Positions 267-52,564 of a DNA stretch of 64,000 bases are shown here, piece by piece. This DNA is from Chloranthus sessilifolius (lineage: Eukaryota > Streptophyta > Magnoliopsida > Chloranthales > Chloranthaceae). Below the pieces are notes generated by a model. That model ran no database searches. It was given only the letters and a program-made list of their open reading frames with translations, and was not told the origin of the DNA. The stretch lies in assembly GCA_021018995.1 (NCBI GenBank), contig CM037586.1, positions 11,002,247 through 11,066,246 of the forward strand, in the 5' to 3' direction. How positions within the stretch are numbered: position 1 is the stretch's first letter; each line of letters starts with the position of its first letter. A program made the position numbers and the translations under genes.

Positions 267-1777
267 TGTAGACACCCAAATTTGGCCCAATGCCCGATCG
301 AAACATACTTTGAGAAAGTTGCGCTCCCCGATCTTCCAGTAGCATCTCCCATACCCTTAGGAACCTTCCCATACCATTAGGAACTTTTCCAAAACCCAAG
401 CTTGAGAAGATCTCTTCGAGACTCAAACCCTATTCTGTTGGAAGGAGGATATTCTTAGCTTTGCAAAAAGCTAAGAATCGCCTCAATCCGAGTCATATAC
501 CAAAAGTTATGGCGAATCGAATTTGGGCTGAGGTGAGGCCTTTTTGCCTAGCATGTGTGATATACACGCTAGGCTATTTCTGAAGAAATGTGGCCTAGCA
601 TGTATAATAACGCTAGGCCATTTCTGAAGAAATTTTACCTAGCATGTATAATATATACGCTAGGCCAATTGACCTTCTTCCTCCTAAGTGTGGGCCCCAC
701 GGCGGGCTCTGAACTTCTGGGGAGTACTGTACATATGCCTGGCGAGTATAATATACACGCTAGGTTTAGCTACAATACTTCTTGGATTTTGCCCAAATTT
801 CACTTTTGGGGTTTGACTTGTTGACCATCCTAATGTTTAGGGTGGATTACTTTAGGACTGTTGCACCCTCATTAACCCTATTTGTAACCCCCTAGCCATT
901 TGAAACCCCACCCTATCATATGCCATTGAACCCTATTCACACTTATCCATAGCCTTGAAAACCCAAAATCCTTAGATTTAGGATTACCTAGTTGCTAATC
1001 TCATAAGCATTTAAGTATCCCCCTAACCTACCCTTTCTCTATAACTAAAGAGGCATCCCCCCTTGCAAATGGCTTGAAAAATTTTCAAAAGAGAGAAAGA
1101 TTAGAGATTTCCTTCTCCCCTTTGGTGCACCAAACCCATACAAATTTCAGAACTCAAAAATCCCTTAGCTTAGGTGAGAACCCTCCCTTAAAACCCATCT
1201 GCCATCAAAAATCCCTTAGCTTAGGTGAGAACTACCCCTAGCCTTCTTCTCCTACCTCTTAGCTATTATGCCTTAGAGGTTAGAAGCCATCTTTCAACCC
1301 CTCAAGCTACCAGAAGCTCACCAAGTGCACCCACGCGAAGGTTCACAACTGTGCTACAAGGGCCTGAGAGCTCATGCTCTCCCCTCTATCCCTCTATCTT
1401 CTTTGCTTTCCCTTTATCCTTGAATTTGTGTCGTTACGCCATTGAAATACTTGATGATTGTGGGGCGCGTAAATATGATCAAAGTGCCTTAGGGCAAAGG
1501 GGGGGTGCTATTTTTATATTTCATTCTTCCTTTGTTTGGCCATAAGTAGAGATCGCTTATGAGCGGGTTGTTCGCGTGCCTCACACCTTTGTGATCGATA
1601 ACCACAACCCCTACCCAAGAGCCTTTCACGTAGACCGCAATCCGAGTCATATTTGGCATTTCGGTGTATTTTAATATTGATTTAGGTTTCCCGGGGCACC
1701 AAAAGCTCTGGGTGGTGACTCTAGTTTTATCAAGAGCGCATCATCGCGACGGACTCATGAGTGCCCACGATTGCACA
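267..1777 (+). repeat. 5' LTR of the Tat/Ogre element
   Basis: It begins TGTAGACACCC directly after Tekay coding sequence and ends ...TTGCACA just before a tRNA-type primer site. The GGTGGTGACTCTAG phrase about 70 bp before the LTR end is typical of Tat LTRs. No second LTR is in the window, so the borders rest on these motifs and not on LTR alignment. It contains a palindrome array at 546-764 and no convincing protein gene. Confidence 0.65.
546..764. repeat. Array of four 26-29-nt quasi-palindromes in the Tat LTR
   Basis: Sites at 546-574, 593-618, 638-664 and 738-764 each read roughly CCTAGCATGTATAA then ATACACGCTAGG, so each can fold into a hairpin. The first three are 44-47 bp apart and are joined by a linker containing TTTCTGAAGAAA, itself an inverted repeat. 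The same motif recurs downstream of the LTR (2621-2788). Confidence 0.8.
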
Positions 1778-1779
1778 GA

Positions 1780-1799
1780 TGGTGACTCTACTGGGGAGT
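1780..1799 (+). promoter_or_regulatory. Primer binding site of the Tat/Ogre element
   Basis: TGGTGACTCTACTGGGGAGT lies 2 nt after the LTR end. It differs slightly from the TGGCGACTCNRCTGGGGA primer-site pattern of Tat/Ogre elements, where a tRNA primes minus-strand DNA synthesis. The tRNA identity (arginine in many Tat elements) is inferred from the family. Confidence 0.75.
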
Positions 1800-3197
1800 A
1801 GCTAGTAGAGCTTCCACTTGAAGTTTGGCTTGCTGTTTTTATTTCATTTTCACAAACATTTGTTTGTGTTCTTTTCTTTCTCTCATACTCACCCCTATGA
1901 TTCCGTCAATTTTTCTCACCCCTACAATTTCGTCTATTTTTATTTGCCCCTACTTTTTCGTCATTTACATGCCTTAGCTGATTGGTGGGCCTACTTGAGT
2001 ATTATCTTTACTTTCATTTACTTTCGGTCATTTACATGCCTTAGCCGATTGGCGGGCTTACTTGCGCATTTACACGCCTTAGTCATTTGGCTGGCCTACT
2101 TGAGCTTTTACATTTTCGCAATCATATCATACCAGTGGACGCCGGCCGTAGAGGTGGCACGGGATCATCACAACCCATCTTTGAACCTAAGTAAACTCCC
2201 CTTTTTAAAAATTGAATTTAAAATTGAACCTTAAAAATAAACTAAGGGACTTAATTCATTTTTATGTTGGGTAGATTTTAAAGGGTGGAAATTTAGGCAA
2301 CGATACAAATATCCCGATTATTAGTACGGAAGCAGCTCCTAGTGGTGATGTCAGGAAAAGTAGCACCCCATCTAGTATCTGAGAAGGCGCTTGCGTCAAA
2401 GGTATATTGGGTGGGTGACTGATCTGGTTACGAAGCTTAAAGCCCTTGGAGAGTGCGTTTAGTTGCCCCGAATCAATCTTGTATCCCTAGGTTTAGAGAG
2501 GAGGGACCGATTACAACAAAGAAAATCAGTCCTCGAAAGCACCGCTTCCTGAAAACCAAAATAATAGAGTAATTTCGAGCCTATTGTTTGCTGTCAAAAT
2601 ATAAGTTTACACTTTATTTTGCCTAGCGTGTATACTATACATACTAAACCAAATATCCCCAGAATTGCTCTAGCATGTATAATATACACGCTAAGCCAAA
2701 AATCCTCATATTTTACCTAGCGAATATCATACACGCTAAGCCAAAATCTTCAGATTTCTGGCCTAGCGTATATAATACATATGCTAAGTGTATTTCTGGT
2801 TGGGCAGCTCGGATCTGAGGCTTTTTCTCACTTCACCTGAGTCTCCCGCTTAGCGGTTTAGTACCTACGGTAGATCCCACACGTTCTGACACCTAATACA
2901 CCCTCGCCAGTCAAAAAAGGTTACCCTCTTATTGACTTTTTCTGAGGGATCGGGTTGTCGTGTAGATTCTCGTGCCTTCACATAGAACAAAGGTTTTCCT
3001 TTGTTTTTTCCGTAGCACGTCGGGGTTCCGCCGTGGGAAATATTTGGGGTATGAACGCCGCCCGAAACGAGAATTCTAGGGCCCTGAAACTCATCATAAA
3101 AAGGTTCATTTTCTTTATCCAAAAATTAAAAACAAACAAAAACTGAAAAAATTAAAATCCAAAAAGAAAGATAGCTTGTGATGCTGACACAACGGCA
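1800..3197 (+). other. Untranslated leader of the Tat/Ogre element
   Basis: About 1.4 kb between the primer site and the first gag-like frame. Long leaders are usual in Tat/Ogre elements. No protein is recognised. 1818-2234 is open but reads as low-complexity Phe/His/Tyr-rich peptide from pyrimidine-rich DNA. The notable content is the second palindrome array at 2621-2788. Confidence 0.6.
2621..2788. repeat. Second palindrome array, internal leader of the Tat element
   Basis: Four sites at about 2621, 2669, 2715 and 2761 carry the CCTAGCGTGTATA...ATACACGCTAAG pattern seen in the LTR, spaced 46-48 bp. The linkers contain TCTTCAGA-like sequence, the reverse complement of the LTR linker. The arms are partly decayed, but each still pairs. 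Confidence 0.75.
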
Positions 3198-6530: not shown

Positions 6531-6534
6531 GAGA

Positions 6535-7680: not shown

Positions 7681-9659
7681 TGTTCCTTATTATATAAAAG
7701 AATGATAGAAATATGGCAGCAAAAATAAAGACTGGCAAAGACAGATTACAGGGGAAATGAAAATGGATTTAAAATCAGAACCCACAGCACAAAACAACCA
7801 CAGTCCTATAAGATCTAGGGCTGTTGTAGCAAGTTTTGATAAGAGTTTGTCCCACAGGGATCTATGATCTAAAAAACTACAGTAAATCTCCATATCTGAT
7901 ACAGATCTGGTAGCTTTAATCTAATCTATCCTAAACTAGGAAAACAAGGCAAAGAGATGGTGTTTTTAGGTGTCACTAAACTAAAAACAGAAATCAAAGA
8001 AAGGAGGTTTAAGAAGGATGGAAATGGTTTGGTTAACTAAACAGAAAATGGGTGAGAAGTATATAGCTAGCAATTGATTTTCACTAAAAAAGTCATGGCA
8101 GAGCAGAGCAAAGCCTGGATCTACAGTTGTCCTTCATTTGGCTACAAGCTCAAATGCAAGAAAGAAGAATTCAACCCAACCTTGAGATATGGATTAGGCC
8201 TAGGGCTATATCCTGTCCACTTGAATGGTCACAGGATATCCCAGGGATATACTCTAGTCATGGGGGTTGAAAAGTTAGAACAGGAAAACCACTGCAGCCA
8301 CTATGTTCGCAAGGCTATAAGCTCATGCATCTATTGGTGCAGAAAACCTATAAAGATCTAAATGCAAAATACTAGAGATTATAGATTTAATGGAACATTA
8401 AAGATAGCTTTTCATTGTTCAAAAGTTACTTACAATGGATTAGCCCTCAAGGCTGCAGTCTCTGCAGACCACAGACCTTTTGCAATGATCTCACACAGTC
8501 CTTTTACAGCTTTAAATCAATCCTATCTATTACAAAGAACTTAGTCAGACATGCTGAGCTAAGGAAAGAAGAAAATAAAAAGATGACCTAACCCTAAAAA
8601 TGACCAAAGGCAAGACTATCGTCACGTATCCTCTTACATCAGACCCTTTTTCTGCATTCTTAGCATGACTTTTGTACAATCCAAAAGGTAGCTTTTTGCC
8701 TTGGCGAATCAGAGAAGAGGAGAATCAAAATAGTTGGATCCACTGACGTGGCTCACTCTCAGCCTAGTATTTCCCCAAGTCATGTGGAAAAGCACAACAC
8801 ACTTTGGGAAATGTACCAAATGCTGTGGAAGTTTCACAAATGCCCCTGAAGTCTTAAAATGTATGCTGGAGCCTGAGCTTCAATAGGTTGAAGCTTCAGA
8901 ATGTGAAACTCGGGTGGATAGAATGCTTCTTGAAGAGTTCTCGAGTGGCTGGGATGAATCAGTAGTTCAACTTCACAGGTTCTAGTGCGTCAGGCATATC
9001 TGCTCGACAAGTTCAGAAGGCAGCTTGAGTGGATGGTTCTGAAGTTATTAAACTGCTCGACAGGTTCAGTGTTAAGCATTCTTTTGGTTGCTCGACAGGT
9101 TAAATACAACATCCACTCGACAGGTTCCATGGCTTCAACTAGGATGTGCTCGAGAACTACTCGAGCTTGAAGTGGTGAGGGTGCATCTACTCGAGAACTA
9201 CTCAAGCATATGTTGTTTGAAAGCCTAGATCCTCTAGAGAGCTGCTTGACATTGGATTTCTGGAGGTGTAGTTTGCTCGAGCTGCTCGAGTTGAGATTGT
9301 TGAAGGTGTTTAACTGCTCAAGTTGTATGTTCTACTTCTTTGCTATTTTGTATAGTCTGCTGTAGCACTCCAGTGTTCTTGGATCCCACCTTTCTCTCTC
9401 TGCTGGACTTCTAGGGGTCTAGGACATGCTGAATAGCCCACATGGTGGGGATCACCATGGTGCATTCTCTGTGTTTCCATCAGCTCCAGTTCTTGGCTCT
9501 AATTTCTTTCTTCTTAGCACAAATTATATGTACTGTTGCACTACGCTGTAGTTTATTTCTAACTACAAAAATATATTGAAAAATTAATTATTAAACAACT
9601 CTAAGGTCTAGTAAGGGCTAAGTTAGGAGGCGAAAAGTGGTATAACTCAGTGATTAACA
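7681..9659 (-). repeat. 3' LTR of Athila-1
   Basis: The LTR is bounded on its 5' side (minus strand) by the GGTTTGGGGGTG polypurine tract, and it starts TGTTAATCAC. The other end is placed at TGTTCC (7681), where Tat coding sequence stops. The phrase GTTTGTCCCACAGGGATC near 7846 resembles the 'bread-and-butter' CCCACAGRGATC block found in Athila LTRs. Open frames inside (for example 8074-8361) resemble nothing and are taken as chance. Confidence 0.6.
8935..9330. repeat. Cluster of CTCGA-type palindromic motifs in the Athila-1 LTR
   Basis: At least ten CTCGA cores occur here (e.g. 9003, 9056, 9091, 9116, 9149, 9160, 9190, 9281). The first group shares GCTCGACAGGTTC. 9148-9166 is a perfect inverted repeat, GCTCGAGAACTACTCGAGC. 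Spacing is irregular (11-53 bp). Related motifs recur in the internal spacer at 14555-14885. Confidence 0.7.
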
Positions 9660-14186: not shown

Positions 14187-15101
14187 TAATATCCTAATTT
14201 CTATGCAATAAATCAAAACCCTAGATTCCCTACAAACTCAACAACACTCAATCCACTAAAGAAGTCCTCTACTCCGTAGCAAAAGGAGTCTCAATCTAAT
14301 GGAAAATATGTAGAAACCGAAAATGGACTGAGAAACCGAAAAATTACCTAAACTAGGGTTTGCTATGACAGTCCATAGTGGACCAAATCTGAAACTTCTT
14401 GGTATGAAATGAGTGGCCTGAGTTGCTTATCGAAGTGATGGAAGCAATGGGTAAATGGTGGAGCAAATGGTGCAGATAAGAAGGATGAAGAAAATTTGGT
14501 CGGCTGTCTGTGTTCGAGTGTTTTATCAAGAAGATAGGAATGAGAGAATGCACTGCTCGATAGGTTTAAAACTTAAATCTCGAGCTTCAAGAGGCTGGGT
14601 GCTCAGAACAAAACAGCTTGAGAGGATCTCGAGCAAATTACAAATATGCACTTTAGCCTATCGAGTTTATATGTACTGCACGAGAGGCTGGGACTTTCAG
14701 CACAAACAGCTTGAAAGGATCTCGAGAAAATGCCATTTATGCACAATAGCCTGTCGAGGCTTGTATTTGCTTCAGGTGAACTGGCTTGAGAGGTTCTTTT
14801 GCAGGGCCAGAACCTCTCAAGAAAGCCAAGTACACATATGAAATGTCTCGAGAGGATGCCTGAAGGCTCCTGATCCTCTTGAGAAGGCTAAAAAAACACA
14901 CAGTTCACTCTTGTGCCGACAAGCACACTCTCATACATTAAAGATCAATGGTTTATAGTGCTAAACACAGAAATTCACATATAATGCATATCATAAAAGT
15001 GCACACATCCAGATTTTTGAACACAGACCACAAAAAGAGCAATATTTACATAAAATAAAAACACAAACTATAGCTATGATACATATGATACATGTTGGAG
15101 A
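14187..15101 (-). other. Spacer between pol and env-like ORF of Athila-1, with palindromic repeats
   Basis: No gene is supported. 14555-14885 holds roughly two 105-bp tandem units (around 14580-14690 and 14690-14800) containing AGGATCTCGAG, CCTATCGAG and CCTGTCGAG. CCTGTCGAG is the reverse complement of the CTCGACAGG motif of this element's LTR. The ORF at 14455-14841 on the other strand is a by-product of the repeats. Confidence 0.6.
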
Positions 15102-16320: not shown

Positions 16321-17760
16321 TGATCGGCTTACTATGTGTATCTAATTAAGTCTTAACCTATTACAAGCGCACAATGAAAATTATAGAGCTAGTATAGGAT
16401 CGTTCCCATGAAGATAGGTTATATTTTTTTTTATTTTGGTTTCTGAAAACTTATATTTATCTTTTAAGTTCCTAAACTACTGAAGAAATATGAATAAATA
16501 ATTATTTTTAATCTAAATTGTATAAAATAAATCCCAAATCCTCCTACTTCAGATTATAGTCGTCAATCACAATCTTTAGCTATTGGATATTTATAAAATT
16601 AAACAGTACCATTATACCATATATCAAGTTTTCTAGCATTGGGCGTGAATCAATACTAAAATCCTATCAATACATATTTAATCTAATCTACAATCTCCTA
16701 AAACTTGGGCTGCAATCAAATTCTAGAAAATTGAAGATAGAAAAATAAAACCGTTACACTAATATACAAATTCCAACCTGAGTTATCAATTCAAATTAAA
16801 ATCTAAAGATGTTTACAAAACAGAAAATCTAAACTAGAAAGTAATAAAATTATATCTTTCACCCCTCAACAACAATCATCAATTGCTTCTAAGAAACTAC
16901 AGATATCTACTCTAATCTTCAGCTCCCAATTACAGGTCTCAATTGCTCTTGAGAAACCTTGGATATCTAATCTACAAAGCAATAAAAATCTACTCTAAAT
17001 TGATCGGAAGAAAACCCAACCTCAGTAGTCAATTGATGAAGAGAATTTCTTCGATAATTATTCCTAGACCAAGCCCTCCTATTTATAGATCATAAGGGGT
17101 CAGTCTCTAATTCTAATAAAAGAAACTATTAAAAATAAAAGTATCCTATTATAACTCTAACTCCTAATTTTATTCCTCCTTCCTTTTAATGGTTGATGCA
17201 CTTTTAGAGTGTTCTCTGATTTTTAGCAATAGAGTCCTTTTAAGAATTTTCTTCGTCAATCTCTCAAATCCGTGATTGGTCAAACTTCTAATTGTGGAAT
17301 ATGCATGGCGGTGTAGAATTTCACACATGATCAGCAGCACTGAAAGGCTTCATTCTGTAAAATTGTAAACTATGATTTCTTCTTTCTTTTCTTTGTGGAA
17401 AATCGTAAATCACAATTTTCTATTCTCAGTAGGCTTCCAGCTAACTACTTTTCACTTTCTTTTATATCGTCTTTACTTTAAACGACTTTTCTTTGGAGAA
17501 TCGTAAATTACAATTTCTCTCTTTCTTCAGTACGTTGTTCTGCAAAATCGTAAAACACGATTTTTCATTTCTTTATAGGTGAAGGTTTATCTTTTACGCT
17601 CAATTGTCTTTTTACTACTTTATAAGTTCATTTTGACGAATATTAACAGTTTAGATCTATTTTGCTAATTTTTCTTAATATTTGAATATCATTAGTAGCA
17701 AACTATGGTCTAGCATCACTAAGTTAAGGGTGATAAATTGGCAAGTTATGTGATCGATCA
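16321..17760 (-). repeat. 3' LTR of Athila-2
   Basis: Plus-strand ends are TGATCGGCTT...TGATCGATCA, so the LTR has TG...CA termini on the minus strand with a TGATCG inverted end. It adjoins the polypurine tract at 17761. GGATCGTTCCCATGAAGAT at about 16398 is the CCCA...GAT block shared with Athila-1. Bases 16880-17100 (AATTGCTCTTGAGAAACC and neighbours) are repeated in reverse orientation at 25970-26138. Confidence 0.75.
17360..17563. repeat. AAATCGTAA-type palindromes in the Athila-2 LTR
   Basis: Sites near 17360, 17400, 17498 and 17545 follow AAATCGTAAA.NACGATTT with variable decay (e.g. AAATCGTAAAACACGATTT at 17545-17563). The same motif recurs in internal DNA of this element at about 18675 and at 20476-20540. 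Confidence 0.7.
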
Positions 17761-17771
17761 CACCCCCAAAC
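17761..17771 (-). promoter_or_regulatory. Polypurine tract of Athila-2
   Basis: Minus strand AGTTTGGGGGTG immediately upstream of the LTR start TGATCGATCA. It matches the Athila-1 tract in sequence and position. Confidence 0.75.
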
Positions 17772-18707
17772 TTAAGCTTTAGCAAATAATTATCTCAAAA
17801 CTATAAATTTAAATGTCACTTTCGTAGGGAGCACGATTGCATTTAGCAGATGCAACAAGCCTTTTAACCCCTAGGTGATTCCTAGTGGAGGAGTTGTAGT
17901 CTCCTGAAGGTTTTCAGTGAAGTTACCTACATAGTTCAAATATAATTTTTTTCTTTTTAAAATTTTTTTAAAATAAAACAAAAGATAAAAATCTAAACTA
18001 ATTTTTTATACTAACGACATTAACTAATATAATCAACTAGCTTAATCATCATACAGTTATTATGATTTCCAAAATTTTACAATTCCTTTGTCTTTACTTT
18101 CCTTTATAACAGTTATCCTTGACTAAAATTCCGACAATTTCAATTCATAATAAATAAGAGTTTATGCATTAGTGAAAAGTTTATTCTTCATAAATTTTCT
18201 AAACTGCAATTTTTAGAAAATATTTTCATTCAAATGCTCACTATTGACATACTCTTAAAAAAAAATCGAAACTTCTTGGATTCTCACGATAGTATATCAG
18301 AAAAAAATTTAGTCAAATATAATTGCAAAAAGATTTTTAATCTCCTAGAAAAAGATAATCTATTCTATTCATATGAATCCCTGTACAATCCATAGTATCT
18401 ATTATCTATATCTCTACTAGGCTTATGCTTCTGTAAATCGAAAATCAGAAAGGTCTTTCCTTTGGCTTGTAATGGGACTTTGGGTTTTAAGGTGTCAAAG
18501 AAAGGTAAAAAAGGATTCAAAGTTTTTTTTTTTGAGAATTTAATTCTTCTATTCCATCTTTTCTTTCAGCTTCAGTGTCAGTAAGTATCTAAAAACTTCT
18601 TCCCATTTTTTTTGCTATTTTGTAAATCCCATTTTCTTCTTTTTAGAATTTTTTTTTTATCAACAATTTTCTTTGGAATCGTAATTTACACTTTTTCTCC
18701 CAATATA

Positions 18708-18738
<31 letters not shown>

Positions 18739-20240: not shown

Positions 20241-20640
20241 GGGCGAGAGGAATGATGGTTGTTTGGATGGGAAGTGAATGTTTTATAGTTAGTCCAGGTT
20301 GGGAATTTGAAGGGTTATATTAAATGAAAGTTATAGCCTGGCGTTGAAGAATGCAAAATGGTTGGTTGTGTTTTTAATGCAGGAGACGTGCCTATATAGT
20401 GTAAATCAATGCAGTGCCTATGTTATTAAAGGTCATGCCTATTAAATACATAGAGTGAAGGGATGTTTTCCCAGCAATCGTAGTCACTAAGATTATACGT
20501 TAGAGAAGACATAGTTCAAGGAATCGTAATCATTACGATTTCTCGTTCTAGTGTAATACAGACTTCTATATTATATATTGTAACAATATTATATATATAT
20601 ATATATATATATATTATTTATTTATTTATTTTATTTTTTT
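20241..20640. other. Athila-2 spacer with perfect palindrome and AT microsatellite
   Basis: 20522-20540 is a perfect palindrome, AATCGTAATCATTACGATT. A diverged copy lies 46 bp upstream at 20476-20494. An AT dinucleotide run (about 20590-20614) and ATTT repeats follow. No gene. Confidence 0.7.
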
Positions 20641-21345: not shown

Positions 21346-21706
21346 ATAATTGTGACAGCCCAGATTTCGGCACCCCGAAACCCGTGCCATCAGCACGATC
21401 GTCTTGACCGTGCCCCTTAGCTAAGCACGGAACATTGGCATATCAAGCATAAAATGAACTAATAAATGAAACTACGGAATTTAAATCTATATTAAAGCAA
21501 TTCTCCAAAAGACAGTTCTACCCTCATGACTCTGCATGAATGGAGAACCGATCCGAACCATCGATGATAGCAATCATCACGGATGGTTCGCCCCAACAGA
21601 ATAATCTCAAACTCAATATATACATGGTTTAACCAAAACAAGGCTTGACATACCAAGCCGTACCAATCTCTCTCAAAAAGCCCTCAAAGTGGCACAACGG
21701 AGTCCT

Positions 21707-21877
21707 CTAGAACAAGTCCTCAGGAGGTGGCTCCAACTCGTCTCCGGCCGCAAGGTCCGACTCACCGGGGTCAGTGTCTCCTAAAGCCTCGGCAGCTGCT
21801 AGTAGTGGACCTGCGACGTATAGTCTATAGGGTGAGCTACATCCTAGCTCAATAGGGAACAAAACACAGTTGAACAT
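21707..21877 (-). CDS. Conserved small acidic ORF in the solo LTR
   Basis: The 56-codon frame includes SSPYRLYVAG and ends ESDLAAGDELEPPPEDLF before TAG. It aligns with the Tekay LTR ORFs at 38702, 46458, 52077 and 56103 (SSPRLYVTG ... EELETPAEEFLP). The tail is strongly acidic. From the conserved Phe-Pro to the stop it has 51 codons against 50 in the other four copies. The DNA around the end of 'RLYV' (TATACGTCGCAG) could be a splice acceptor. The product is unknown; it may be an LTR-encoded micropeptide or the exon of a spliced transcript. Confidence 0.5.
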   Translation of the reverse strand: MFNCVLFPIELGCSSPYRLYVAGPLLAAAEALGDTDPGESDLAAGDELEPPPEDLF

Positions 21878-22828
21878 ATAAATTATTACTCACATATATT
21901 CCATGATATGCCATGCATGATGTGTCTATGCAATTTCGGATGAAACAGTTAAAAAGTATTACATTTTACTGGTAGTTTACTCGTGTCTTTTATTTACTCA
22001 TGAATAATGCTGAAAAGGCCTAAAGCAAAACTTAAACTTTCAACTTAAGTAATCCCCGAGCAATATAGCATCGAGCCCCGATGAGATACCCTTCATCATC
22101 ATCTATGTAGACACTTTTAACGTATTCTCTGGGAATACCATAAAGTACCCAAGCCCCTTTCCCCTGGGGATTGGTGGCGGGGTTTCACTTGTCTCAAATC
22201 AACACCCCTGGGGTGTGCTTACTATGTGCGGATAAGCCTCCTTGACCGCTTCTGATTTACCGACGGTCACGGATATCCTGCCGTGTCAGTTGTGGATATC
22301 CCGCCACGTCGGTGGGGTACCCTATCAAACCTCAAATAACAAAAATATCGGTGCCTTACATATAATTATTCACCGTGTAAGTGTGCTATCTTATATCAGT
22401 TAGGCCCTATCAAACATGATTCAATCTTGGATACATCCCTGGGATGTATCTATTTACTTGCATCACACCTGATGCTCTTATCTCTTTACTTCTTCATCCC
22501 CTGGGGATGGCTCATTATACTTACTCTTATGAGTGTTACTCACACACACTTTTCACAATTCTTAAGCAATAAATATTTGAATTTGAATTCTATATCACTA
22601 CATACATGCTCTTGTAAAATAAAGTACATGTTCAAGGTGTTCCCTACCTCAAGTCTTTGTTTGATCAACGCATCAAGGTCCCACGTGGCTCCTTGTGCAC
22701 TAGCTCACACATACCACCTATGGTACCACATAACATGTGAAACACATCACTAAAGATACAATAAAGGAGGTCCAAGACCCTCCAAGAACCTTAAAGTTAA
22801 ACTCAAAAGTTAACATAAATTAGCTCAG

Positions 22829-23265
22829 TCGATTAATCGAACTCCAAAATCGATTAATCGAAAGTCAATATCGATTAATCGATTCTCAAATTGATTAATC
22901 GAGATTTTCATTCGATTAATCGAATCCTAATTCGATTAATCGAAATTCTCAGTTCAACCAAGTCGATTCTCAATTCGAGTAATCGAGTTCCTAAGATCGA
23001 TTAATCGATCTCAAATCAATTAATCAAAAATTGAAATCGATTAATCGAAATCCCATTTCGATTAGTCGATTTACCCCAAGTCATTTCCTCCAGCCCCCTG
23101 GGGTCCACTGGAGGTTCCCAGTCGATTAATCGATACCCAAATCGATTAATCAAAATCCAAAGTCGATTAATCGAAATTCAATTCGATTAATCGAGATCGG
23201 GGTCCTCTGACTTTTCAACTTCTTGACCAATTTCGATTAATCGAAACCCAATTTCGATTAATCGA
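22829..23265. repeat. 17-site TCGATTAATCGA palindrome array
   Basis: Twelve exact and five near-exact copies of the 12-bp perfect palindrome TCGATTAATCGA. Starts: 22829, 22850, 22871, 22891 (variant), 22912, 22932, 22975 (variant), 22997, 23016 (variant), 23037, 23058 (variant), 23122, 23142 (variant), 23163, 23183, 23233, 23254. Most steps are 19-22 bp, mainly 20-21, close to two helical turns. Spacers of 8-9 bp differ in sequence, so the palindrome is conserved while the spacers are not. Confidence 0.95.
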
Positions 23266-23857
23266 AATTGCCAGATTCAGCCCCTTTCGAGCTATTCTTC
23301 CCAACCTTTTTCCACTCTTTTTCCTCTATTTTTCTACACTTTTTATCCTACATTTTACACTATTTCTAACCACTATTTACCCTTACAATCCATGCATTTA
23401 AACTACATAACTCTTACCTTCAATCAATCCCAAATTGATTTCAAATCCATGGTTGGAAAGGCTAGGGTTCCAGCTCTAGCTTGAATGGATTCTCCTCGCT
23501 AAATCGGCCTCTTTAATGCTAGAATCCCCCTTCCAATCCCTCACAATAATGCTTGCTTAACCTCTCACTTCTCTCTCTCTGTCTTCTTTACTCCTTCAAC
23601 AACCAATTTCTAGGATTTTAGGGTTATTAAACCCTTTTATCCTTCCCCCAGCTTGTGTGTTGAGCACATGCACCTCGATAGGTGTATGTGACTTCAGATT
23701 TACAACACACCCCACATAGCTACGCAAACTATCACATCGCATCTGCTCATTACACTCTATGCTAACTATTGAACTTCTATTTGGTCAAACCTATGACTGA
23801 TCGGGCACGGATCTCGAGGTCATAGTTTAGCGTGATTTTTCGGGCTATTACAATAAT

Positions 23858-35803: not shown

Positions 35804-35859
<56 letters not shown>

Positions 35860-36764: not shown

Positions 36765-37588
36765 AGATCAATTGACAGCTCTTCGAATTCCTCTTCAATG
36801 GAAACTTCAGAATATGGGAGAATCACAATCCAGTGTGCAACTTTGTAATATCCCGATATTTTTGAATCCGAGTTTGACTGATTTCGTGCACAAGTCCGGC
36901 ACGGTGATCAATGTCGCCATGGTTTTATTTAATAATAAGTCATTAAATAATATTTGGGTAGCTTTGTGTGGAAGGATTAGAGTTCAAAGTGTGATTGGGC
37001 AGTTAGTGTGAAAGTCGTGCACCGACTTGCGGTGTGCCGCTCAACACCAAAACCCAACCTTAAGATAAGAAAATAGAATTTGCAACTAAATATCCTTGAT
37101 ATTTAATTAGTTTTTCATTCGGTTATAAGAGAGAGGAGGTTGGTTGCTTAATGGCTAAGCTTTGCCATTTGAAATTTTTGTAGAGAGAGAAAGGGAGTAA
37201 GAGTTGAGAGAACCGACCCAACCTATTTGAGCACCGTCACCTTTGAAACCCTTGCGGTATTTCGATTGTGCAATCACCTACAAGCTCCGCACACTCCGTA
37301 CCTTTCGCAACGCTTGTGACGCGATCTTCGTTTGTGTTTTGAAGAGATGGAGATCAATCGTTGAAGAAATTCGACGATTTTGCTTCAAAACCCTCTTCGA
37401 CATTATTTCTTAAAGCTGTGGGATTAATCGGCAAAAAGGTTAGTTTTTCTTTTGATTTTAATAGTTTAGATTGTAGAATAAATCTTGTTTTAGTTTAGTG
37501 TATGTGTGTGTGCAAAAATAAAGCGAATCTGACAAGATTCGAGGGGAAAAATAGACCAAGGAAGTAACATGAAGGGTTCTGAACTCGA

Positions 37589-37771
37589 GAAATTCAAGGG
37601 TCGAATTTGGGTTTTTAAGCCTGATGCATTTTTGAGAAATTCGAGGGTTGAATTTGGGTTTTTAAGCCTGATGCATTTTTGGGAAATTTGAGGGTCGAAC
37701 TTAAATTCGAGGGTCGAATTTGGATTTTTAAGCCTGATGCATTTTTGGGAAATTCGAGGGTCGAATTTGGT
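37589..37771. repeat. 46-47-bp palindromic minisatellite, expanded in the 5' LTR
   Basis: Units of GAAATTCGAGGGTCGAATTT plus TTAAGCCTGATGCATTTTTG start near 37589, 37636, 37682/37701 and 37749. The first part is a palindrome with 8-bp arms, AAATTCGA-GGG-TCGAATTT. The 3' LTR has only the copies at 45457 and 45503. Confidence 0.9.
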
Positions 37772-38701
37772 CTGATGTGCCGACACTACTTTAGTATTTC
37801 GATCATAACTTCTTATCCCAAACTCGGATTGATGAGATTTTTGAGGCGTTGGAAAAAAGACAACGAGACCTATACGTTTATGAATTGACAAATTTGTGAA
37901 TCGAATGTTATAAAGGTCAACAATTAGGGTAAAGTAGGGATAAGTTTTCACATGAGTCAACGTTACCTTAAACTTGCCTGTTTCGCCTAGCTGTGAGGAA
38001 ATTTTAGGAACTTTGGCTTATATGATAATTAGTCGGTAACATGTGTATACATGAATGTTTGTAATGTAGATTAAAGATTGGAGATTGTTGAGTAGGCTTT
38101 TACTTTGCCTCTGATATGCTCGACTCTAAACTAAGGTAGGGGAACCTAAAACCTTATTTGCATTCTATTATAAGTTTAGGTTATCTTGTATAAAGCATAA
38201 ATTCCTAAATTTTGTTTGACACAGCATGATTAAGAACTGAGAAATATGATACAAATCAGAACTTTGAAACTTTGATATGAATAAAAACTCAGAATTTGAA
38301 TTTTCACACTTTGAACTTTGAATCAGAACTCTAAAAATCTGTGAATGTAGTATGTATACAAACTTTGATATATTTAGCATTTGCATTTGATTTGAGGCAG
38401 ATACGAATGATACCCTAGATCCTACCAACCATGTTGACGATAGTTCTATTTGGCGCAAGTTTCCCTCATAGCGTAGGGGCGTGTTGCTTTTCAGAAAATG
38501 GGTTCAAGAACGACGATGTTCAATAGGGCTTCCCATCGGTAACGTAGTCCGCTCTCATGCTATAGGAAATTTAGGAGATAAAATTAAGTTATAATTTTAA
38601 GACAAGAAGCATGCTAATTCAGAAGTTTTTGAATACATCAGATTTATGTTATCAGTTTTGACTCAGGATTAGAACTGGAGATTTAGTTTGCAAAGCATCA
38701 T

Positions 38702-38923
38702 TTGAAAACCATATTTAATCCGATTTCTGTCTTTTTGAAAACCTTTACTTATAATGAAATGCAAATAGACATGTTTCCTCTATTAAGCTTCGATGTTAGC
38801 TCACCCCGACTATACGTCACAGGTGCTGAATTTGCCTTAGGATCTGACGATCGTGATTTGGAGGACTCTGACTACATTGTTGAGGAGGAGTTGGAGACCC
38901 CAGCAGAGGAGTTCCTTCCTTGA
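38702..38923 (+). CDS. Conserved small acidic ORF in the Tekay-1 5' LTR
   Basis: 73 codons. The conserved part starts at FPLLSFDVSSPRLYVTG and ends SDYIVEEELETPAEEFLP before TGA. Four Tekay copies in the window keep exactly 50 codons from Phe to stop, and the solo LTR keeps 51. Most differences between this copy and the Tekay-2 copies fall at synonymous positions. The N-terminal half outside the conserved part is not preserved in Tekay-2. No known function. It could be a micropeptide or a 3' exon after the TATACGTCACAG acceptor-like sequence. Confidence 0.5.
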   Translation: MKTIFNPISVFLKTFTYNEMQIDMFPLLSFDVSSPRLYVTGAEFALGSDDRDLEDSDYIVEEELETPAEEFLP

Positions 38924-39002
38924 TCGAGATTAGTCATTTTGGTACTTTTGGATTAGAATCTTTTTAAATATTGGGCCCTAGGCCATTGTTTTATCTTTTT
39001 AG

Positions 39003-39092
39003 ATATCACTTGAGGAACCATCATTAGGAACCATTGTTTAGGTGTTTGGATTGGCCATCACTGGTGGTTCTTTCTGGTTCCTCTTGGTGATA
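39003..39092. promoter_or_regulatory. Hairpin near the LTR end, conserved in the Tekay copies
   Basis: ATATCACTTGAGGAACCATC (39003) is complementary, with small bulges, to GGTTCCTCTTGGTGATAT (39075). The same arms occur at about 46758, 52309 and 56328. The position between the small ORF and the LTR end would put it in the transcribed 3' part, perhaps near the RNA end site. Confidence 0.55.
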
Positions 39093-39262
39093 TTTTTTGT
39101 TAAAGCTTTTAAGCTTTTGTTCTCATTTTATTAGCTTTGCTTCTATTTAGATCTATGCTTATGCTGCCGGCTTCTGTTTGTTACGGCTTATTAAGAAATC
39201 AATAAGTTGATGAACCGGCCTTTCCTATACCTTAAGGATTGGAAAAGTCGGGTCGTCATAGT

Positions 39263-39274
39263 TGGTATCAGAGC
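39263..39274 (+). promoter_or_regulatory. Primer binding site of Tekay-1 (initiator tRNA-Met type)
   Basis: TGGTATCAGAGC two bases after the LTR is the complement of the 3' end of plant initiator methionine tRNA, the usual primer for chromoviruses. Confidence 0.9.
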
Positions 39275-40560: not shown

Positions 40561-41302
40561 TATATATTTCTAGTTCATACAGGTATACAAATTTTTGAAA
40601 ATTGTGCCTACATGTTTGTGTTTTCTTTAGCTAAATGACATGAGATCAATCGGGTCATGTCTAGCTTGGCTGATGACTTATAATAGCAAATTATAGGTGT
40701 TACCCCTACGGCTAAGCCTGAGATTAGCGTTAAATATGTTCGGGCTTTGAAAAGGTCGATATAGAATAAAGACCAACTTTCAAAAAATTTAAATTTTGGA
40801 AAATTTTTGAAGTACACAGTTACTGCAAAATTTGAACCTCGAATTTAACATTCGAAGGTCGAATTTTGTATGGTCACTGACAGGGTTTTGAAGGTTTCTT
40901 TGGGTCTTTCTTCCTTCTTAGGCAAAATCAAGGGGATTAGGCTGTGTGCTTAATCAAAACGAGTGAGTCATTGCTTATGGTTTTAGGCAGTTGAAAGACC
41001 ATGAGAGAAATTATCTGACGCATGATCTCGAATTAGCAGCGATTATCTTCGCCCTGAAGATCTGGAGACATTACCTCTACGATGAAATATTTGATATATC
41101 ACCAATCACAAGAGCCTCATGTACCTATTCACTCAGAAGGACTTGAATATGAGGCAAGCGACGATGGATGGAGTTTTTGAAGGATTATGACTGCTCGATC
41201 CAATGCCATCCAGAAAAGGCAAATGTCGTTGCTGATGTTCTCAGTAGAAGGTCTTCAGCACAGTTATCACATCTTGTCAGTCAAATACAGAGATAGAAGT
41301 TA
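40561..41302 (+). pseudogene. RT deletion filler and RNase H remnant of Tekay-1
   Basis: 40561-40930 replaces the whole reverse transcriptase. It includes LTR-like sequence, CGAATTTAACATTCGAAGGTCGAATTT (around 40841-40867), the minisatellite motif of this element. From 40937 the sequence again matches the RNase H of Tekay-2 (GGATTAGGCTGTGTG..., 'DLELAA' region near 41025, '[11 protein letters not shown]' near 41140) but with frameshifts and stops. The ADVLSR-like end is at about 41230. Confidence 0.7.
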
Positions 41303-44723: not shown

Positions 44724-47016
44724 TGTAATATCCCGATATTTTTGAATCCGAGTTTGACTGATTTTGTGCACAAGTCCGGCACGGTGACCAATGTAGCCAT
44801 GGTTTTATTTAATAATAAGTTATTAAATAATATTTGGGTAGCTTTGTGTGGAAGGATTAGAGTTCCGAGTGTGATTGGGCAGTTAGTGTGAAAGTCGTGC
44901 ACCGACTTGCAGTGTGCCGCTCAACACCAAAACCCAACCTTAAGATAAGAAAATAGAATTTGCAACTAAATATCCTTGATATTTAATTAGTTTTTCATTC
45001 GGTTATAAGAGAGAGGAGGTTGGTTGCTTAATGGCTAAGCTTTGCCATTTGAAATTTTTGTAGAGAGAGAAAGGGAGTGAGAGTTGAGAGAACCGACCCA
45101 ACCTATTTGAGCACCGTCACCTTTGAAACCCTTGCGGTATTTCGATTGTGCAATCACCTACAAGCTCCGCAATTACCTTTATCATCTCACGATCTTCATT
45201 TGTGTTTTGAAGAGATGGAGATCAATCATTGAAGAAATCTGACGATTTTGCTTCAAAACCCTCTTCGACATTATTTCTTAAAGCTGTGGAATTAATCGGC
45301 AAAAAGGTTAGTTTTTCTTTTGATTTTAATGGTTTAGATTGTAGAATAAATCTTGTTTTAATTTAGTGTATGTGTGTGTGCAAAAATAAAGCGAATCCGA
45401 CAAGATTTGAGGGGAAAAATAGACCAAGGAAGCAACATGAAGGGTTCTGAACCCGAGAAATTCGAGGGTCGAATTTGGGTTTTTAAGCCAGATGCATTTT
45501 TGGGAAATTCGAGGGTCGAATTTGGTCTGATGTGCCGACACTACTTTGGTATTTCGGTCATAACTTCTTATCCCAAATTCAGATTGGTGCGATTTGTAAG
45601 GCGTTGGAAAGAAGACAACGAGCCCTATAACTTTCATGAATTGATAAATTTGTGAATCGAATGTTATAAAGGTCAAAAATTAGGGTCAAGTAGGGATAAG
45701 TTTTCACATGAGTCAACGTTACCTTAAATTTGCCTGTTTCGCCTTGCTGTGAGAAAATTTTAGGAACTTTGGCTTATATGATAATTAGTCGGTAACATGT
45801 GTATACATGAATTTTTGTAATGTAGATTAAAGATTGGAGATCATTGAGTGAGCTTTTACTTTGCCTCTGATATGCTCAACTCTAAACTAAGGTAGGGGAA
45901 CCTAAAACCTTATTTGCATTCTATTATAAGTTTAGGTTATCTTATATAAAGCATAAATTCCTAAATTTTGTTTGACACAGCATGATTAAGAACTGAGAAA
46001 TATGATACAAATCAGAACTTTGAAACTTTGATATGAATAAAAACTCAGAATTTGAATTTCCACACTTTGAACTTTGAATCAGAACTCTAAAAATCGGTGA
46101 ATGTAGTATGTATACAAATTTTGATATATTTAGCATTTGCATTTGATTTGAGGCACATACGAAGGATACCCTAGATCCTACCAACTGTGTTGACGGTAAT
46201 TCTATTTGGCGCAAGTTTTCCTCATAGAGTAGGGGCTTGTTGCTTTTCAGAAAATGGGTTCATGAACGACGATGGTCAGTAGGGCTTCCCATCGGTAACG
46301 TAGTCCGCTCTCATGCTATAGGAAATTTGGGAGATAAAATTAAGTTATAATTTTAAGACAAGAAGCATGCTAATTCAGAAGTTTTTGAACACATCAGATT
46401 TATGTTATCAGTTTTGACTCAGCATTAGAACTGGAGATATAGTTTGCAAAGCATCATTTGAAAACCATATTTGATCCGATTTATGTCTTTTTGAAAACCT
46501 TTACTTATAATGAAATGCAAATAGACATGTTTCCTCTATTGAGCTTCGATGTTAGCTCACCCCGACTATACATCACAGGTGCTGACATTGCCTTAGGATC
46601 TGACGATCGTGATTTGGAGGATTCTGACTACATTATTGAGGAAGAGTTGGAGACCCCAGCAGTAGAGTTCCTTCCTTGATTGAGATTAGTCATTTTGGTT
46701 CTTTTGGATTAGAATCTTTTTGAATATTGGGCCCTAGGCCATTGTTTTATCTTTTTGGATATCACTTGAGGAACCATCATTAGGAACCATTGTTTAGGTG
46801 TTTGGATTAGCTATCACTGGTGATTCTTTCTGGTTCCTCTTGGTGATATTTTTTGTTAAAGCTTTTAAGCTTTTGTTCTTGTTTTATTAGCTTTGCTTCT
46901 ATTTAGATCTATGCTTATGCTGCTGGCTTCTGTTTGTTACGGCTTATTGAGAAATCAATAAGTTGATGAACCGGCCTTTCCTATACCTTAAGGATTGGAA
47001 AAGTCGGGTCGTCACA
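44724..47016 (+). repeat. 3' LTR of Tekay-1
   Basis: It begins TGTAATATCCCGATATTTTT and ends GGGTCGTCACA, followed by AGCTT. Scattered substitutions distinguish it from the 5' LTR. Only two palindromes are present (45457, 45503), against four or five in the 5' copy. Confidence 0.9.
46458..46679 (+). CDS. Conserved small acidic ORF in the Tekay-1 3' LTR
   Basis: Same 73-codon frame as 38702-38923, ending EEELETPAVEFLP before TGA. It differs from the 5' LTR copy by a handful of substitutions without any indel or stop. See the conservation argument given for the 5' copy. Confidence 0.5.
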   Translation: MKTIFDPIYVFLKTFTYNEMQIDMFPLLSFDVSSPRLYITGADIALGSDDRDLEDSDYIIEEELETPAVEFLP

Positions 47017-48539: not shown

Positions 48540-48931
48540 AAATATGAGATTAATAGCTTTTTTTATTTATATAATATTTTTTAAACCATTAAAAAAAGCA
48601 TTAAAAACATTGCACTAAAAAAAGCATAAAAAAAATATTATTTTAAAAAAAATCATTGACGTAATTTTATTTTTTTAAAATAGTATTTTTTCTTTTAAAA
48701 AAATTGCATAAAAAACCACTGCCAAAAGCAGTAGTTTTTTCTATGACTGTTAAGAACAGTTGTTGCTGAAGTTCATAAACCACTGTCTTGTATAGTGGTA
48801 AAAAAAAATCACTCCTTTTTTTACAATTGTTTGGGGCAGTGGTTTTTTGAAAAAAAACTACTGTCAAAGACAGTATTTTTTGAAAAAATCACTGTTTAAG
48901 GCAGTGGTTTTTTTGGCTTTTTCACGTAGTG
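48540..48931. repeat. Right subterminal repeat region of the CACTA element
   Basis: Alternating CCACTGYC / GRCAGTGG motifs in both orientations (48715, 48780, 48833, 48850, 48899) with A/T-rich links, ending TTTTTCACGTAGTG. Such short subterminal repeats bind the CACTA transposase in known elements. The sequence could form several hairpins. Confidence 0.65.
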
Positions 48932-49539: not shown

Positions 49540-50429
49540 GAATGTTGAGGAAGAGTTGAGTATGATTGGGCTACTTCATGTTTTAAATAATTGTTGCAAA
49601 AATGTAGCCAATTGGGATATTAGGATTTGAATTTCACATTCCAAAGGTATTTTTTCTGTGAAATCTTTCTATTTGAATCTTCATCAGCAGTCAAGACAGA
49701 ATCTGAATTGGGTAAAGATCTGGAAGAAAAAGATTCCTTCCAAAATCAAATTTTTTGGATGGAATATTGGTTGGGGTAGAATTCTTACCATAGATAAGCT
49801 CAATCGAAAGGGGATGAATTTAATACATAGATGTGTTATGTGCCTTCTGGGAGAAGAATCCACAAATCATCTTCTTATTCATTGTTGGGTTGCTAAAAAA
49901 GTTTGGAATGCAGTCCTCTAGCAGTTTAAAATTTTATGGGTGTTTTCGGAATCATGTGTTGAGGTCTTAGCTGCTTAGATTAGGGTCGGATTTGAAGGAA
50001 TTAAGGGGGAATTTTAGAATTTTATGGATCTTATTGTTATGTAGTCTCTTTGGATTAAGAGAAATAATCGAACTTTTAATAGAAAAAGAAAGTATATTTC
50101 TATGATTCTTAATAGAAAAAGAAAGTATGTTTCTATGATTCTTAAGGATGTTCGAGATTTGGCTTTAAATTGGATCAAGATTGGATGTCGGTCAACGCGT
50201 GATGAAGATGTGGACTTTATTCATGAATGAGATAGCCTGTACATGTAGTCATTTTCCTCTCGTGTATGATTGTACTTTCTTGTAGATTTGGCAAATCCAT
50301 TGACTTGGCGGTGAGGTTTTATCGAGAGATGGGTAGCTTTTTTTAGGTTTGCTAGTATCTTGCTGGCCTTTTTTTGTTTGTGTTATTTTTTCAGTATAAT
50401 AAAGCTTATTGGTTATTGATAAAAAAAAA
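49540..50429 (+). mobile_element. 5'-truncated LINE (zf-RVT end with poly-A)
   Basis: Reading 'SKGIFSVKSFYLNLHQQSRQ', 'WKKKIPSKIKFFGWNIGWGR', 'RRCVMC'-type cysteine pair (HRCVMCLLGEESTNHLLIHC) and 'VWNAVL' match the zf-RVT region near the C-terminus of plant L1 reverse transcriptases. Downstream is degraded coding ('LWIKRNNRTFNRK', with a 30-bp duplicate of the 'ILNRKRKYVSM' codons) and a 3' end finishing in TTATTGATAAAAAAAAA at 50429. 5' truncation is usual for LINEs. Stops show it is dead. Confidence 0.8.
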
Positions 50430-50502
50430 TACTCTCCATTATCGACCAATTAATTTATTTAAATGGGGTAATTGAAATTTCATGGCATCATAGATTTGCC
50501 TA

Positions 50503-52564
50503 CGTAATATCCATGATATTTGGACCTATTTTTTTCGTTTACCTCGATAAGCGTGCTGAAAAATATTGCGGGATATTTTTGGGTTTTTAGTTAGCTTAGG
50601 GTTTGATGAGAATAGTGACCGAAGTATATTGGTTTTGGACTTGTTGAAGGCAGCTAAACCATAGTTTATAGTTTATGGAATTTATATGCGCTTAACATCA
50701 GAAACATGTGCAAGTCATATGGATAGAATTGCAAATAAGAAAATCTAGATATTTGGTTCTTATTTTATTTTATAAGGAGAGAGGCTATGAGGAGAAGTTT
50801 CACTTCTCTCTCTCGTGTGAAATTGAAACCTTGCAACCCTTGCCTCACCTTGATCTTAGATCGTGTGAGATTGTGAATCCCTCTCCCCATCTTGACCATT
50901 GAAAAGCTTTGTAAAGGGAATTGGATTAGTTTGTTGTAATTGGAAGGAAGGCTAGGGGAGAATGAAAAATTATGTGTGTGGTGTGGGTCTGACCTGTGCT
51001 TGTGAAGCAAGGTTTGAATGGACTGATTTTGAGGCTCTGGCCTATTAAACCTCCAAGTTTGGTTCCGGTGCTTGATTTTGGTGCAACGGGATCGATGGAT
51101 TAAACGTCAAGAGGTAGGCTTTTAAACCTCCATGAGTTAATTAAATTTATGTTTTTCTTAGAGTAGATTATAGTGAGTTATATTTAGATGAGCAAACTAT
51201 GGTTGAATGAGAAAAAGGAATTGGAGAAAATTGAGGGTCGAATTTTGATTTTAAAGCCTGACGAAATTTTGGAAATTCGAGGGTCGAATTTTGCCCTGTT
51301 TCTGGCCTTTAAATTTTTTTTTGGAAATTTTCTTGGCAAGCTTTTGGGTTTGATTTTTTTTTACCAATATTAACACTGGGAGTGTTAATCATTGTAGGTT
51401 TTGAAATATAGAGTCCATTGTGAGGATTGCCTTGCTTGTTTTGGACCGTTTTTGTTAAGGTAGGGGAACCCTAAACCTAATTTGCATTATATTATAAGTT
51501 TTGGTTATTTGTTGCAAACATTGAAATCTGAATTTTATAAACCTAGCATGATTAAGAACTCTGAAACTTCGATATAAGCACTCAGAAATTTGACCTTCCG
51601 AGCTTCATTTTCGAATGTGAACTTTGAATAAGAACTCCGAAAATCCGAAAAATGTATTAATTACATAACATACGATATGTTTAGCATTGCATTTGATTTG
51701 AGGCACATACGAACGAAACCCTAGATTCTACCAACCGTGTTGACGGTAATTCTATTTGGCGCAAGTTTCCCTCATAGCGTAGGGGCTTGTTGCACTTCAG
51801 AAAAAGGGTTCATGGACGACGATGATCAGTAGGGTTTCCCATCGGTGACTTTTTCCGCTCTCATGCTATATGTAATTTGGGAGATAAAATTAAGTTATAA
51901 ATTTAAGACAAGAAGCATGCCTAATTCATAAATTTGAAAACATCAGACTCACTGAATCAGCTTTTGGCCTTCTATTTAGAATTGGAAATTTGATTTGCAA
52001 AGCATCTTTTGAAAAACTTATTGATCCAATTTTGTCTTTGAAAAACCTTCACTTATGATAAAATGCTTTAGATAAGTTTCCTCTATTGAGCTTCGATGTT
52101 AGCTCACCCCGACTATACGTCACAAGTGTTGAGGCTGATTTGGGATCAGACGATCTTGATCTTGAGGACTCTGATTTCGTTCCTAAGGAGGAACTGGAGA
52201 CACCTGCTGAGGAGTTCTTTCCCTGATTTTTATTTATCCTTTCTTGGTATTTTGTTTAGAATTATTCTGAATTATGGGCCGAAGGCCGTTGTTTTGTCTT
52301 TTTGATATCACTCGAGGAACCATCATTAGGAACCATTATTTTAGGTGTTTTAGATTGGCTATCACCGGTGGTTCTTCCTGGTTCCTCGGGGTGATATATA
52401 TTATTTTGATTTAAGCTTTTGTCTTTGCTTACTCTATGCCTTGCCTCTGTCTTAGGTCTATGTTATGATGTCGGCTTCTATTTGTTACGGCTTATTGAGA
52501 AATCGATAAGTTGATGAATCAGCCTTTCCTATACCGAGAGGATTGGAAAAGTCGGGTCGTCACA
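50503..52564 (+). repeat. 5' LTR of Tekay-2
   Basis: It starts CGTAATATCC (the expected TG mutated to CG) and ends GGGTCGTCACA before the primer site. It holds two copies of the AAATTCGAGGGTCGAATTT palindrome 46 bp apart (about 51227 and 51273), the small ORF (52077-52226) and the end hairpin (52309). It is more diverged from Tekay-1 than the two Tekay-1 LTRs are from each other. Confidence 0.85.
52077..52226 (+). CDS. Conserved small acidic frame in the Tekay-2 5' LTR
   Basis: 50 codons from Phe-Pro to TGA: FPLLSFDVSSPRLYVTSVEA, then GSDDLDLEDSDF and EELETPAEEFFP. There is no ATG directly upstream in this copy (the Met codon is altered). Length is identical to the Tekay-1 copies, with no indel. 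Confidence 0.45.
   Translation, partial: FPLLSFDVSSPRLYVTSVEADLGSDDLDLEDSDFVPKEELETPAEEFFP

Follow-up and report, generated by a model that had tools for sequence, protein, structure and literature searches.

Introduction

The closest described counterpart of the sequences analysed here is found in the Sireviruses, Ty1/copia retrotransposons whose family-specific palindromes, called RMs, lie in the upper half of the long terminal repeat (LTR), beginning 200-400 bp into it; more copies are found in the linker, and of these 77 of 79 precede the ENV-like gene (PMC2829016). The accessible part of that account, which does not treat Gypsy elements, calls RMs Sirevirus-specific and absent from classic retrotransposons, by which other Copia elements seem to be meant. 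Here, we report that several retroelement families in a 64-kb stretch of the Chloranthus sessilifolius genome (C3:11002247-11066246, hereafter the window, part of 2.17 Gb) each have their own palindrome array in the LTR, and often a second one internally. The elements are referred to as Tat-like, Athila and Tekay-type, names taken in part from the initial annotation of the window and that we use as assumptions.

As far as the available text on RMs goes, the palindromes described here are like them in clustering in the upper half of the LTR and in having linker copies, and unlike them in belonging to Gypsy lineages and in forming, in the Tat-like element, an additional array in the leader. The CGG-CCG core, a feature of RMs, is absent from the motifs found here, and one Sirevirus motif, ACAATCGATTGT of Tnd-1, resembles them (PMC2829016). 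Because the elements are no Sireviruses and lack this core, we do not count them as members of that group; the Tekay-type ones, which have a Met primer site and SH3 and chromodomains after the integrase, are not Copia Sireviruses. By analogy, the arrays and the RMs seem to work alike.

Other systems were compared on the basis of the accessible portions of the papers cited. The VANC targets of VANDAL DNA transposons are short arrays of non-coding motifs that change between relatives through tandem repeats; the arrays here are likewise non-coding and turn over between related elements, namely, the Tekay-type LTRs, and they differ in belonging to LTR retrotransposons, in consisting of palindromic sites, and in that no VANC-like protein was found in the open reading frame (ORF) pieces (PMC5735166, PMC10398659). 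Del (Tekay) LTRs hold plastic, variable CpG islands, with no palindromes and no linker copy mentioned in the part of that report available (PMC4029996); set beside these islands, the observed/expected ratio is 2.43 in the array of our solo LTR versus 0.88 in the LTR. In Retand elements, the region from pol to the 3' LTR holds tandem repeats together with antisense TRP28 ORFs; these elements resemble the present ones in their family-specific arrays and extra ORFs in this region, the Retand protein having predicted DNA binding; unlike here, neither palindrome arrays nor an LTR counterpart are reported in the accessible text (PMC11963269). More generally, the available part of a 2023 paper describes retroelement cis-regulatory regions as often being arrays of repeats, sometimes palindromic. 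In the open-access literature, judged largely by title and abstract, we came across no account of arrays like these for Athila, Tat or Tekay elements, and among the matches listed for papers containing one of six motif strings none is on retrotransposons by title. The kind of array is therefore already known, and its presence in Gypsy elements, with unrelated motifs and twice within an element, was not encountered in that literature.

Results

Palindrome arrays in the window, the genome and an unbiased sample

All palindromes quoted in the initial annotation are present where it had placed them, and its central claim, that several families each have their own array in the LTR and often also internally, was confirmed both in the window and elsewhere in the genome. 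The motifs are family-specific yet common to distant parts of one element, as judged by 7-mer profile matches in the Tat-like element, Athila-1 and, narrowly, Athila-2. A palindromic repeated motif is present in the solo LTR, Tekay-1, Athila-2 and the Tat-like element, and only loosely in Athila-1. The spacing near 46 bp that had been thought to recur proved not to be general, with 13 of the 16 spacings in the solo LTR measuring 19-22 bp.

A blind fuzzy scan for clusters of similar palindromes (8-bp arms, 500-bp windows, dinucleotide-shuffled windows as control) found at least two similar palindromes in 66 of 509 segments of the window, versus 15 of 1280 shuffled ones. It recovered the arrays at 594, 2671/2764, 9148/9275, 17399/17544, 20477/20523, 22856-23252, 37590-37750, 40828/40848 and 45459/45506, missed the Athila-1 linker and Tekay-2 LTR arrays, and additionally flagged several unrelated places. 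With exact 6-bp arms, at least three palindromes occurred in 17 of 509 windows versus 0 of 1280 shuffled, all of them lying in the solo LTR, in that of Tekay-1 or in one of two simple-sequence stretches. The exact 6-mer scan was dropped as sole detector, as it misses, within the window, the Tat-like family and the two Athila ones and, at sampled locus L016, the Athila LTR.

Since the single best 9-mer, tried as family motif, failed for the Athila linkers, sharing within elements was assessed with a 7-mer profile built from each LTR array and run over 1277 windows, the z score being reported for the best window outside the array. The Tat-like profile had its top match at 2601 (z 16.1, next 3.5), that of Athila-1 at 14551 (8.4, next 3.2) and that of Athila-2, by a thin margin, at 20451 (4.8, next 3.7), while the Tekay-1 profile ranked its own 3' LTR (16.6) and the Tekay-2 LTR (8.8) before the internal place at 40701 (6.2, next 4.1).

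Genome-wide, pairs of TCGATTAATCGA, the solo-LTR motif, lying 5-15 bp apart number 110,537 per strand, versus 0 for the reversed control. The 23-bp Tat-like core, at up to 2 mismatches, has 7,770 sites versus 0 in the control, and AATCGTAA-N(1-3)-TTACGATT, from Athila-2, has 2,971 versus 3. In seven further copies of the solo-LTR family, picked from motif matches, 11-24 units lie at one constant place of the LTR in every copy. These pairs and copies, together with the independent two-place copies of the next section, show that the palindromes are not confined to single copies, an outcome that the initial annotation had named as contradicting its view.

As an unbiased sample, we took 20 loci of 10 kb at round coordinates, divided into 780 overlapping windows. 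At least three exact, like palindromes were present in 18 of these windows, at six loci (L014, L017, L019, L020, L023 and L031), compared with 0 of 780 shuffles and 1 of 780 each for mirror and complement arms. The new motifs are TTGATCGATCAA in L019 and CCGATACGTATCGG in L020, in unclassified elements; TCAATCGATTGA in L023 and GACAGG-9-CCTGTC in L031, in Athila elements; and TCGCTCGAGCGA in L017, near a Tekay-type LTR end. A CpG lies within the arm in 16 of the 18 array windows, versus a fraction of 0.21 of 12-mers in the sample, and nine of the ten motifs listed contain one. Separately, three TGTCGATTAATCGACA-like palindromes at L001:4980-5060, on a phage-like contig, resemble bacterial operators, their likeness to the plant motif being one of chance.

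The two-place layout in independent copies

LTR-array profiles of the sampled loci were run over 1980 windows of the same sample, and the layout of LTR plus linker array was found to recur in three independent copies. The profiles of L023 and L026 rank their own linkers first; for the L014 profile, two places in the LTR of L019, which belongs to its family, come before its own linker; and the L016 profile retrieves the linker of L031. Tekay arrays are matched by the L023 profile as well (8.9 versus 10.6), because the motifs have ATCGATT in common. The two TCAATCGATTGA modules of L023 (linker 470-655, LTR 2632-2817) have the same unit spacings, 22/54/22/53/22, and a unit agreement of 0.875, with unrelated sequence in the 30 bp after each module (0.10, 0.20, 0.23) and a TATA box 31 bp after the LTR array. 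L026, a relative of Athila-1 (integrase 84%), has sites of the CTCGAG type both in its LTR and downstream of pol. The LTR of L016 abounds in CCTGTCGAGAGG-like sites, which escaped the exact scan, and that of L011 has sites of the L023 type.

The Tekay element at L014 has 17 units in its LTR (1541-2069) and 23 more at 8681-9315, behind a chromodomain ORF that ends at 8539 (Pfam 22.4 bits, below the cut-off of 25.1). Between the two arrays the core agrees at 0.968, versus 0.403 for the flanks. A TATA box, TATATATA, lies 10 bp past the second array, and an ATG at 9566, 240 bp past it, opens a 142-codon piece of an extra ORF region. This region, broken in this copy, spans L014:8540-9998 and L034:1-1341, between the chromodomain and the 3' LTR, which starts at L034:1342.

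Taken by position, the array lies in the upper half of the LTR in Athila-1, Athila-2, the solo LTR and Tekay-1, and further copies lie in the linker before a 3' gene in Athila-1, L014, L023, L026 and L031, the Athila-1 ORFs being ENV-like candidates only. Sirevirus RMs number at least 8 per element; here, with only one LTR in view, the units per element number 17 in the solo LTR, 17 + 23 in L014, about 4 + 4 in the Tat-like element and 4 + 2 in Athila-2.

The L014 arrangement bears on the idea of element-encoded anti-silencing, in which a protein of the element itself, for example the product of the extra 3' ORF, would strip silencing marks after binding to the palindromes and would co-evolve with the motif. 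The extra ORF right behind the second array, the CpG in the arms and the use of short tandem non-coding motifs that differ between related elements, as in the VANC targets, would all suit such a system. However, the VANC motifs stand in one orientation in the accessible descriptions (PMC5735166, PMC10398659), whereas the sites here are palindromic. Moreover, protein searches returned no relatives, and neither a DNA-binding nor a VANC-type domain was found in five pieces of the extra ORF or in the Athila-1 ORFs, which is a weak counterargument with pieces so short and broken. All in all, we consider anti-silencing of this kind unlikely.

Conserved cores within changing arrays

Between copies of the solo family, identity is 0.94-0.98 in core columns, taken as those that in the solo LTR depart from the motif by 1 mismatch at most, a definition that somewhat favours the core, versus 0.82-0.91 in the spacers, 0.79-0.86 in the LTR before the array and 0.85-0.93 after it; the core tops every other class in all seven copies. 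Within arrays (136 units from eight LTRs), cores agree at 0.90-0.95 and the 8-bp flanks at 0.41-0.49. CpG transitions account for 30 of the 67 core changes in the solo family, in which 99 of 128 spacings average 20.4 bp (standard deviation 0.84), about two helical turns. In this family, core and spacer do not diverge alike, contrary to what is expected of a neutral tandem repeat.

The arrays themselves are plastic. The Tekay-type LTRs carry three different motifs. Alignment of the Tekay-1 and Tekay-2 arrays scores 88, versus 8 +- 3 when shuffled, and the 300 bp on either side are no better than shuffles (11 versus 9 +- 4; 9 versus 15 +- 5); BLAST alignment is limited to the array and to the sequence from position 1289 onward. 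Because the two LTRs of Tekay-1 hold five units (5') and two (3'), arrays grow or shrink after insertion. This difference is what would be expected if the palindromes were neutral tandem repeats, multiplied by nothing more than slippage or unequal exchange and copied from one part of the element to another; the solo flanks, slightly alike at 0.42-0.44 versus 0.30 from composition alone, bear a trace of duplication, and the Tat-like leader array aligns inverted to its LTR array over 131 bp at 72.5%. Against neutrality stand the cores, conserved above spacers in every solo copy, the independent recurrence of the two-place layout, and the excess of inverted-repeat arrays over mirror and complement ones, 18 to 1 in each case, for which slippage offers no explanation. 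We regard a neutral origin as very improbable.

Conserved palindromes might also act in RNA, with hairpins in the transcript serving packaging or as a source of small RNAs. Predicted foldback is strong in the Tat-like arrays (z -10.4, -6.9), the solo array (-6.9, -4.9) and the internal Tekay-1 palindromes (-7.2), and maize Sirevirus LTR palindromes are matched by small RNAs, according to the accessible parts of the reports (PMC5311732, PMC10760457). In contrast, Athila-1 (-2.0, -1.1), Athila-2 (-2.1, -1.6) and the Tekay-1 LTR (-1.4) fold barely better than shuffles, and RNA folding was rejected as a common denominator, not being general across arrays. Among symmetric pairs of the solo family, 53 have changed on one side and seven on both, and since none of these seven is compensated there is no sign of a selected hairpin. 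The packaging role put forward in the initial annotation is thus unsupported, foldback ranging between arrays from strong to hardly above chance, and an RNA function appears very unlikely.

Host silencing, integration or chromatin factors might also exploit the sites to the detriment of the element. The CpG content and the location in non-coding DNA would, indirectly, suit a silencing factor, yet purely harmful sites should be lost and the cores are preserved, and we consider this reading very improbable.

The elements of the window

The arrays and the solo LTR are listed in Table 1.

Table 1. Palindrome arrays and solo LTR of the window (positions within the window).
Feature	Position	Strand	Description
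Tat-like LTR array	546..764	+	27-bp palindrome CCTAGCGTGTATA-N-TATACACGCTAGG; 3 ungapped units + 1 gapped
Tat-like internal (leader) array	2621..2788	+	palindrome of the LTR array; 3 ungapped units + 1 gapped; top LTR-profile match
Athila-1 LTR array	8935..9330	-	TCGA-centred sites, ~330-725 bp into LTR starting near 9659
Athila-1 linker array	14555..14885	-	between integrase and long downstream ORFs
Athila-2 LTR array	17360..17563	-	AATCGTAA-N-TTACGATT, 4 units, 1-3 mismatches; 200-400 bp into LTR starting 17760
Athila-2 linker array	20476..20541	-	2 units, 3-bp gap
Solo Tekay-type LTR	21351..23852	-	2502 bp; begins TGTAATAGCCC, ends TGTCACA; ATTAT both sides
Solo LTR array	22829..23265	-	TCGATTAATCGA, 17 units, 12 exact; ~590-1030 of 2502 bp
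Tekay-1 5' LTR array	37590..37769	+	AAATTCGA-NNN-TCGAATTT, 5 units; 746-926 of ~2.4 kb LTR
Tekay-1 internal palindromes	40828..40867	+	2 units; doubtful as linker array
Tekay-1 3' LTR array	45458..45524	+	2 units
Tekay-2 LTR array	51227..51292	+	2 units

The Tat-like LTR extends over about 266-1777, as read by eye. The Tat/Ogre name is unconfirmed: two ORFs tested had no Pfam match, and one primer-site match was found where 1.18 are expected, i.e. chance level. The sampled locus L024 has an LTR array as well (TGGCGTGT.., 47-bp spacing). At 1-208 lies the end of a chromovirus integrase, which matches the Tekay-1 SH3 region at 60% and is cut off where the Tat-like LTR seemingly begins. The Tat-like palindrome has the inner half-sites GCGTG...CACGC in common with the NAC site TTGCGTG(6n)CACGCAA, and differs from it in the outer bases and in having nine rather than six bases between half-sites, according to the accessible description (PMC4106437). 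Its identification as a NAC site was rejected, a resemblance in which outer base and spacing do not match.

Both Athila elements lie on the minus strand, with LTR starts at 9659 and 17760, each behind TTTGGGGGTG, and have a 132-bp block in common before it. CTCGAG occurs six times in the LTR array of Athila-1, four times in its linker and 18 times in the whole window. The Athila-1 ORFs have no Pfam match and no relatives in protein searches. In Athila-2, the gap between half-sites is 1 bp in the LTR, versus 3 bp in the linker (Table 1), and a TATA-like box lies 273 bp downstream of the LTR array. Its integrase piece matches the Pfam integrase below the curated cut-off, and the Athila-type integrase is only distantly like the Tekay-type one. 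An inverted Athila-2-type copy (24946-26167 and 16834-19376), in which linker and LTR are seemingly fused by deletion, retains a single AATCGTA..TACAATT unit.

The solo LTR sits within the Athila-2 integrase, splitting it into 23780-24355 and 20991-21312. The TCGATTAATCGA array had also been considered as an Athila linker array, an idea dropped because of the LTR ends and ATTAT flanks inside one integrase and the full-length alignment with LTRs elsewhere. The Tekay-1 LTRs, of about 2.4 kb, span 36844-39262 and 44724-47014, with a Met-type primer site, TGGTATCAGAGC, exactly at 39263 and again at 52567 behind the Tekay-2 LTR, and Pfam backs the protease, reverse transcriptase (RT), integrase zinc finger and SH3 domains of the Tekay-type elements. 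The distance of the Tekay-2 array from the LTR start, which the initial annotation had given, is unconfirmed, no such start having been found in the window. Tekay-1 has no RT; in its place, 40636-40931 holds about 300 bp of unrelated DNA with both internal palindromes. Two other palindrome-rich places are a repeat rich in CCGATACGTATCGG-like palindromes, at 26660-26880 and at L020:7880-8120, and an AT-rich stretch with repeated ACCACTG...CAGTGGT inverted repeats at 48715-48900.

Discussion

The arrays are probably DNA-level sites for one or more dimeric DNA-binding proteins that serve the promoters of the element. The initial annotation had likewise suggested sites for a dimeric protein, and this part of its proposal stands, in that repeated dyad-symmetric sites, conserved cores, sharing between two places and differences between families fit binding with motif turnover. 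A promoter or enhancer is suggested by where the arrays lie, namely, within the first half of the LTR, downstream of pol and, in one copy, immediately ahead of a TATA box and an extra ORF. The LTR array would drive the genomic RNA and the linker array a separate transcript of the extra 3' ORF; the bound protein would keep the CpG-containing sites accessible; and the motifs would change fast, since all units of a tandem array can be exchanged together. The Tat-like leader array lies outside this linker scheme and may act as an enhancer or serve an upstream ORF. As binders, we consider host transcription factors considerably likelier than a protein encoded by the element.

Several results weigh against this reading or limit the observation behind it. 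First, regarding the motifs, the Athila-1 site is TCGA-centred, with no long palindrome, and its best 9-mer has one linker match, equalled in 24 of 300 shuffles; that of Athila-2 also has one, equalled in 16 of 300, so that sharing between LTR and linker is weak there, as is the z score of its profile, given that the solo-LTR profile gets 5.0 at an unrelated place. The bias in the definition of core columns belongs here as well. Second, regarding the two-place layout, L031 has a linker array, yet neither it nor L033 yielded an array in the LTR; a second Tat-like leader array was not found, the L024 interior being without a match at the mismatch limit applied and its leader possibly out of view; and the internal pair of Tekay-1 is of doubtful status. 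Third, regarding the promoters, the extra ORF of L014 has no Pfam match in five pieces and no relatives in protein searches, and TATA-like boxes lie within 400 bp behind two of seven internal and five of nine LTR arrays, with 0.2-1.2 expected per stretch. Since these boxes are elsewhere near expectation, only L014 and the L023 LTR show a well-marked promoter, and the promoter step is otherwise one that we infer. TATA boxes were accordingly rejected as a general mark of arrays, being not above expectation.

A bolder version of the protein-binding reading, which we consider unlikely, is a private circuit of plant Gypsy lineages, in which the extra 3' gene, under its own array promoter, would encode a dimeric protein. 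Bound to the CpG palindrome at that promoter and in the LTRs, this protein would keep both active against silencing. If this were true, protein and palindrome would turn over jointly, insulating families from each other, in the manner of VANC and VANDAL; LTR retrotransposons would have arrived at such a system independently, with the Copia Sireviruses as a parallel case.

Palindrome arrays were formerly described as a trait that sets Sireviruses apart. That Gypsy elements follow this two-place plan with motifs unrelated to those of Sireviruses suggests that plant retrotransposons have come upon the solution repeatedly. In the genome investigated, the 110,537 close pairs of one motif amount to a large store of potential regulatory sites, and the old question of how extra or env-like ORFs are expressed in plant retroelements is made directly testable.

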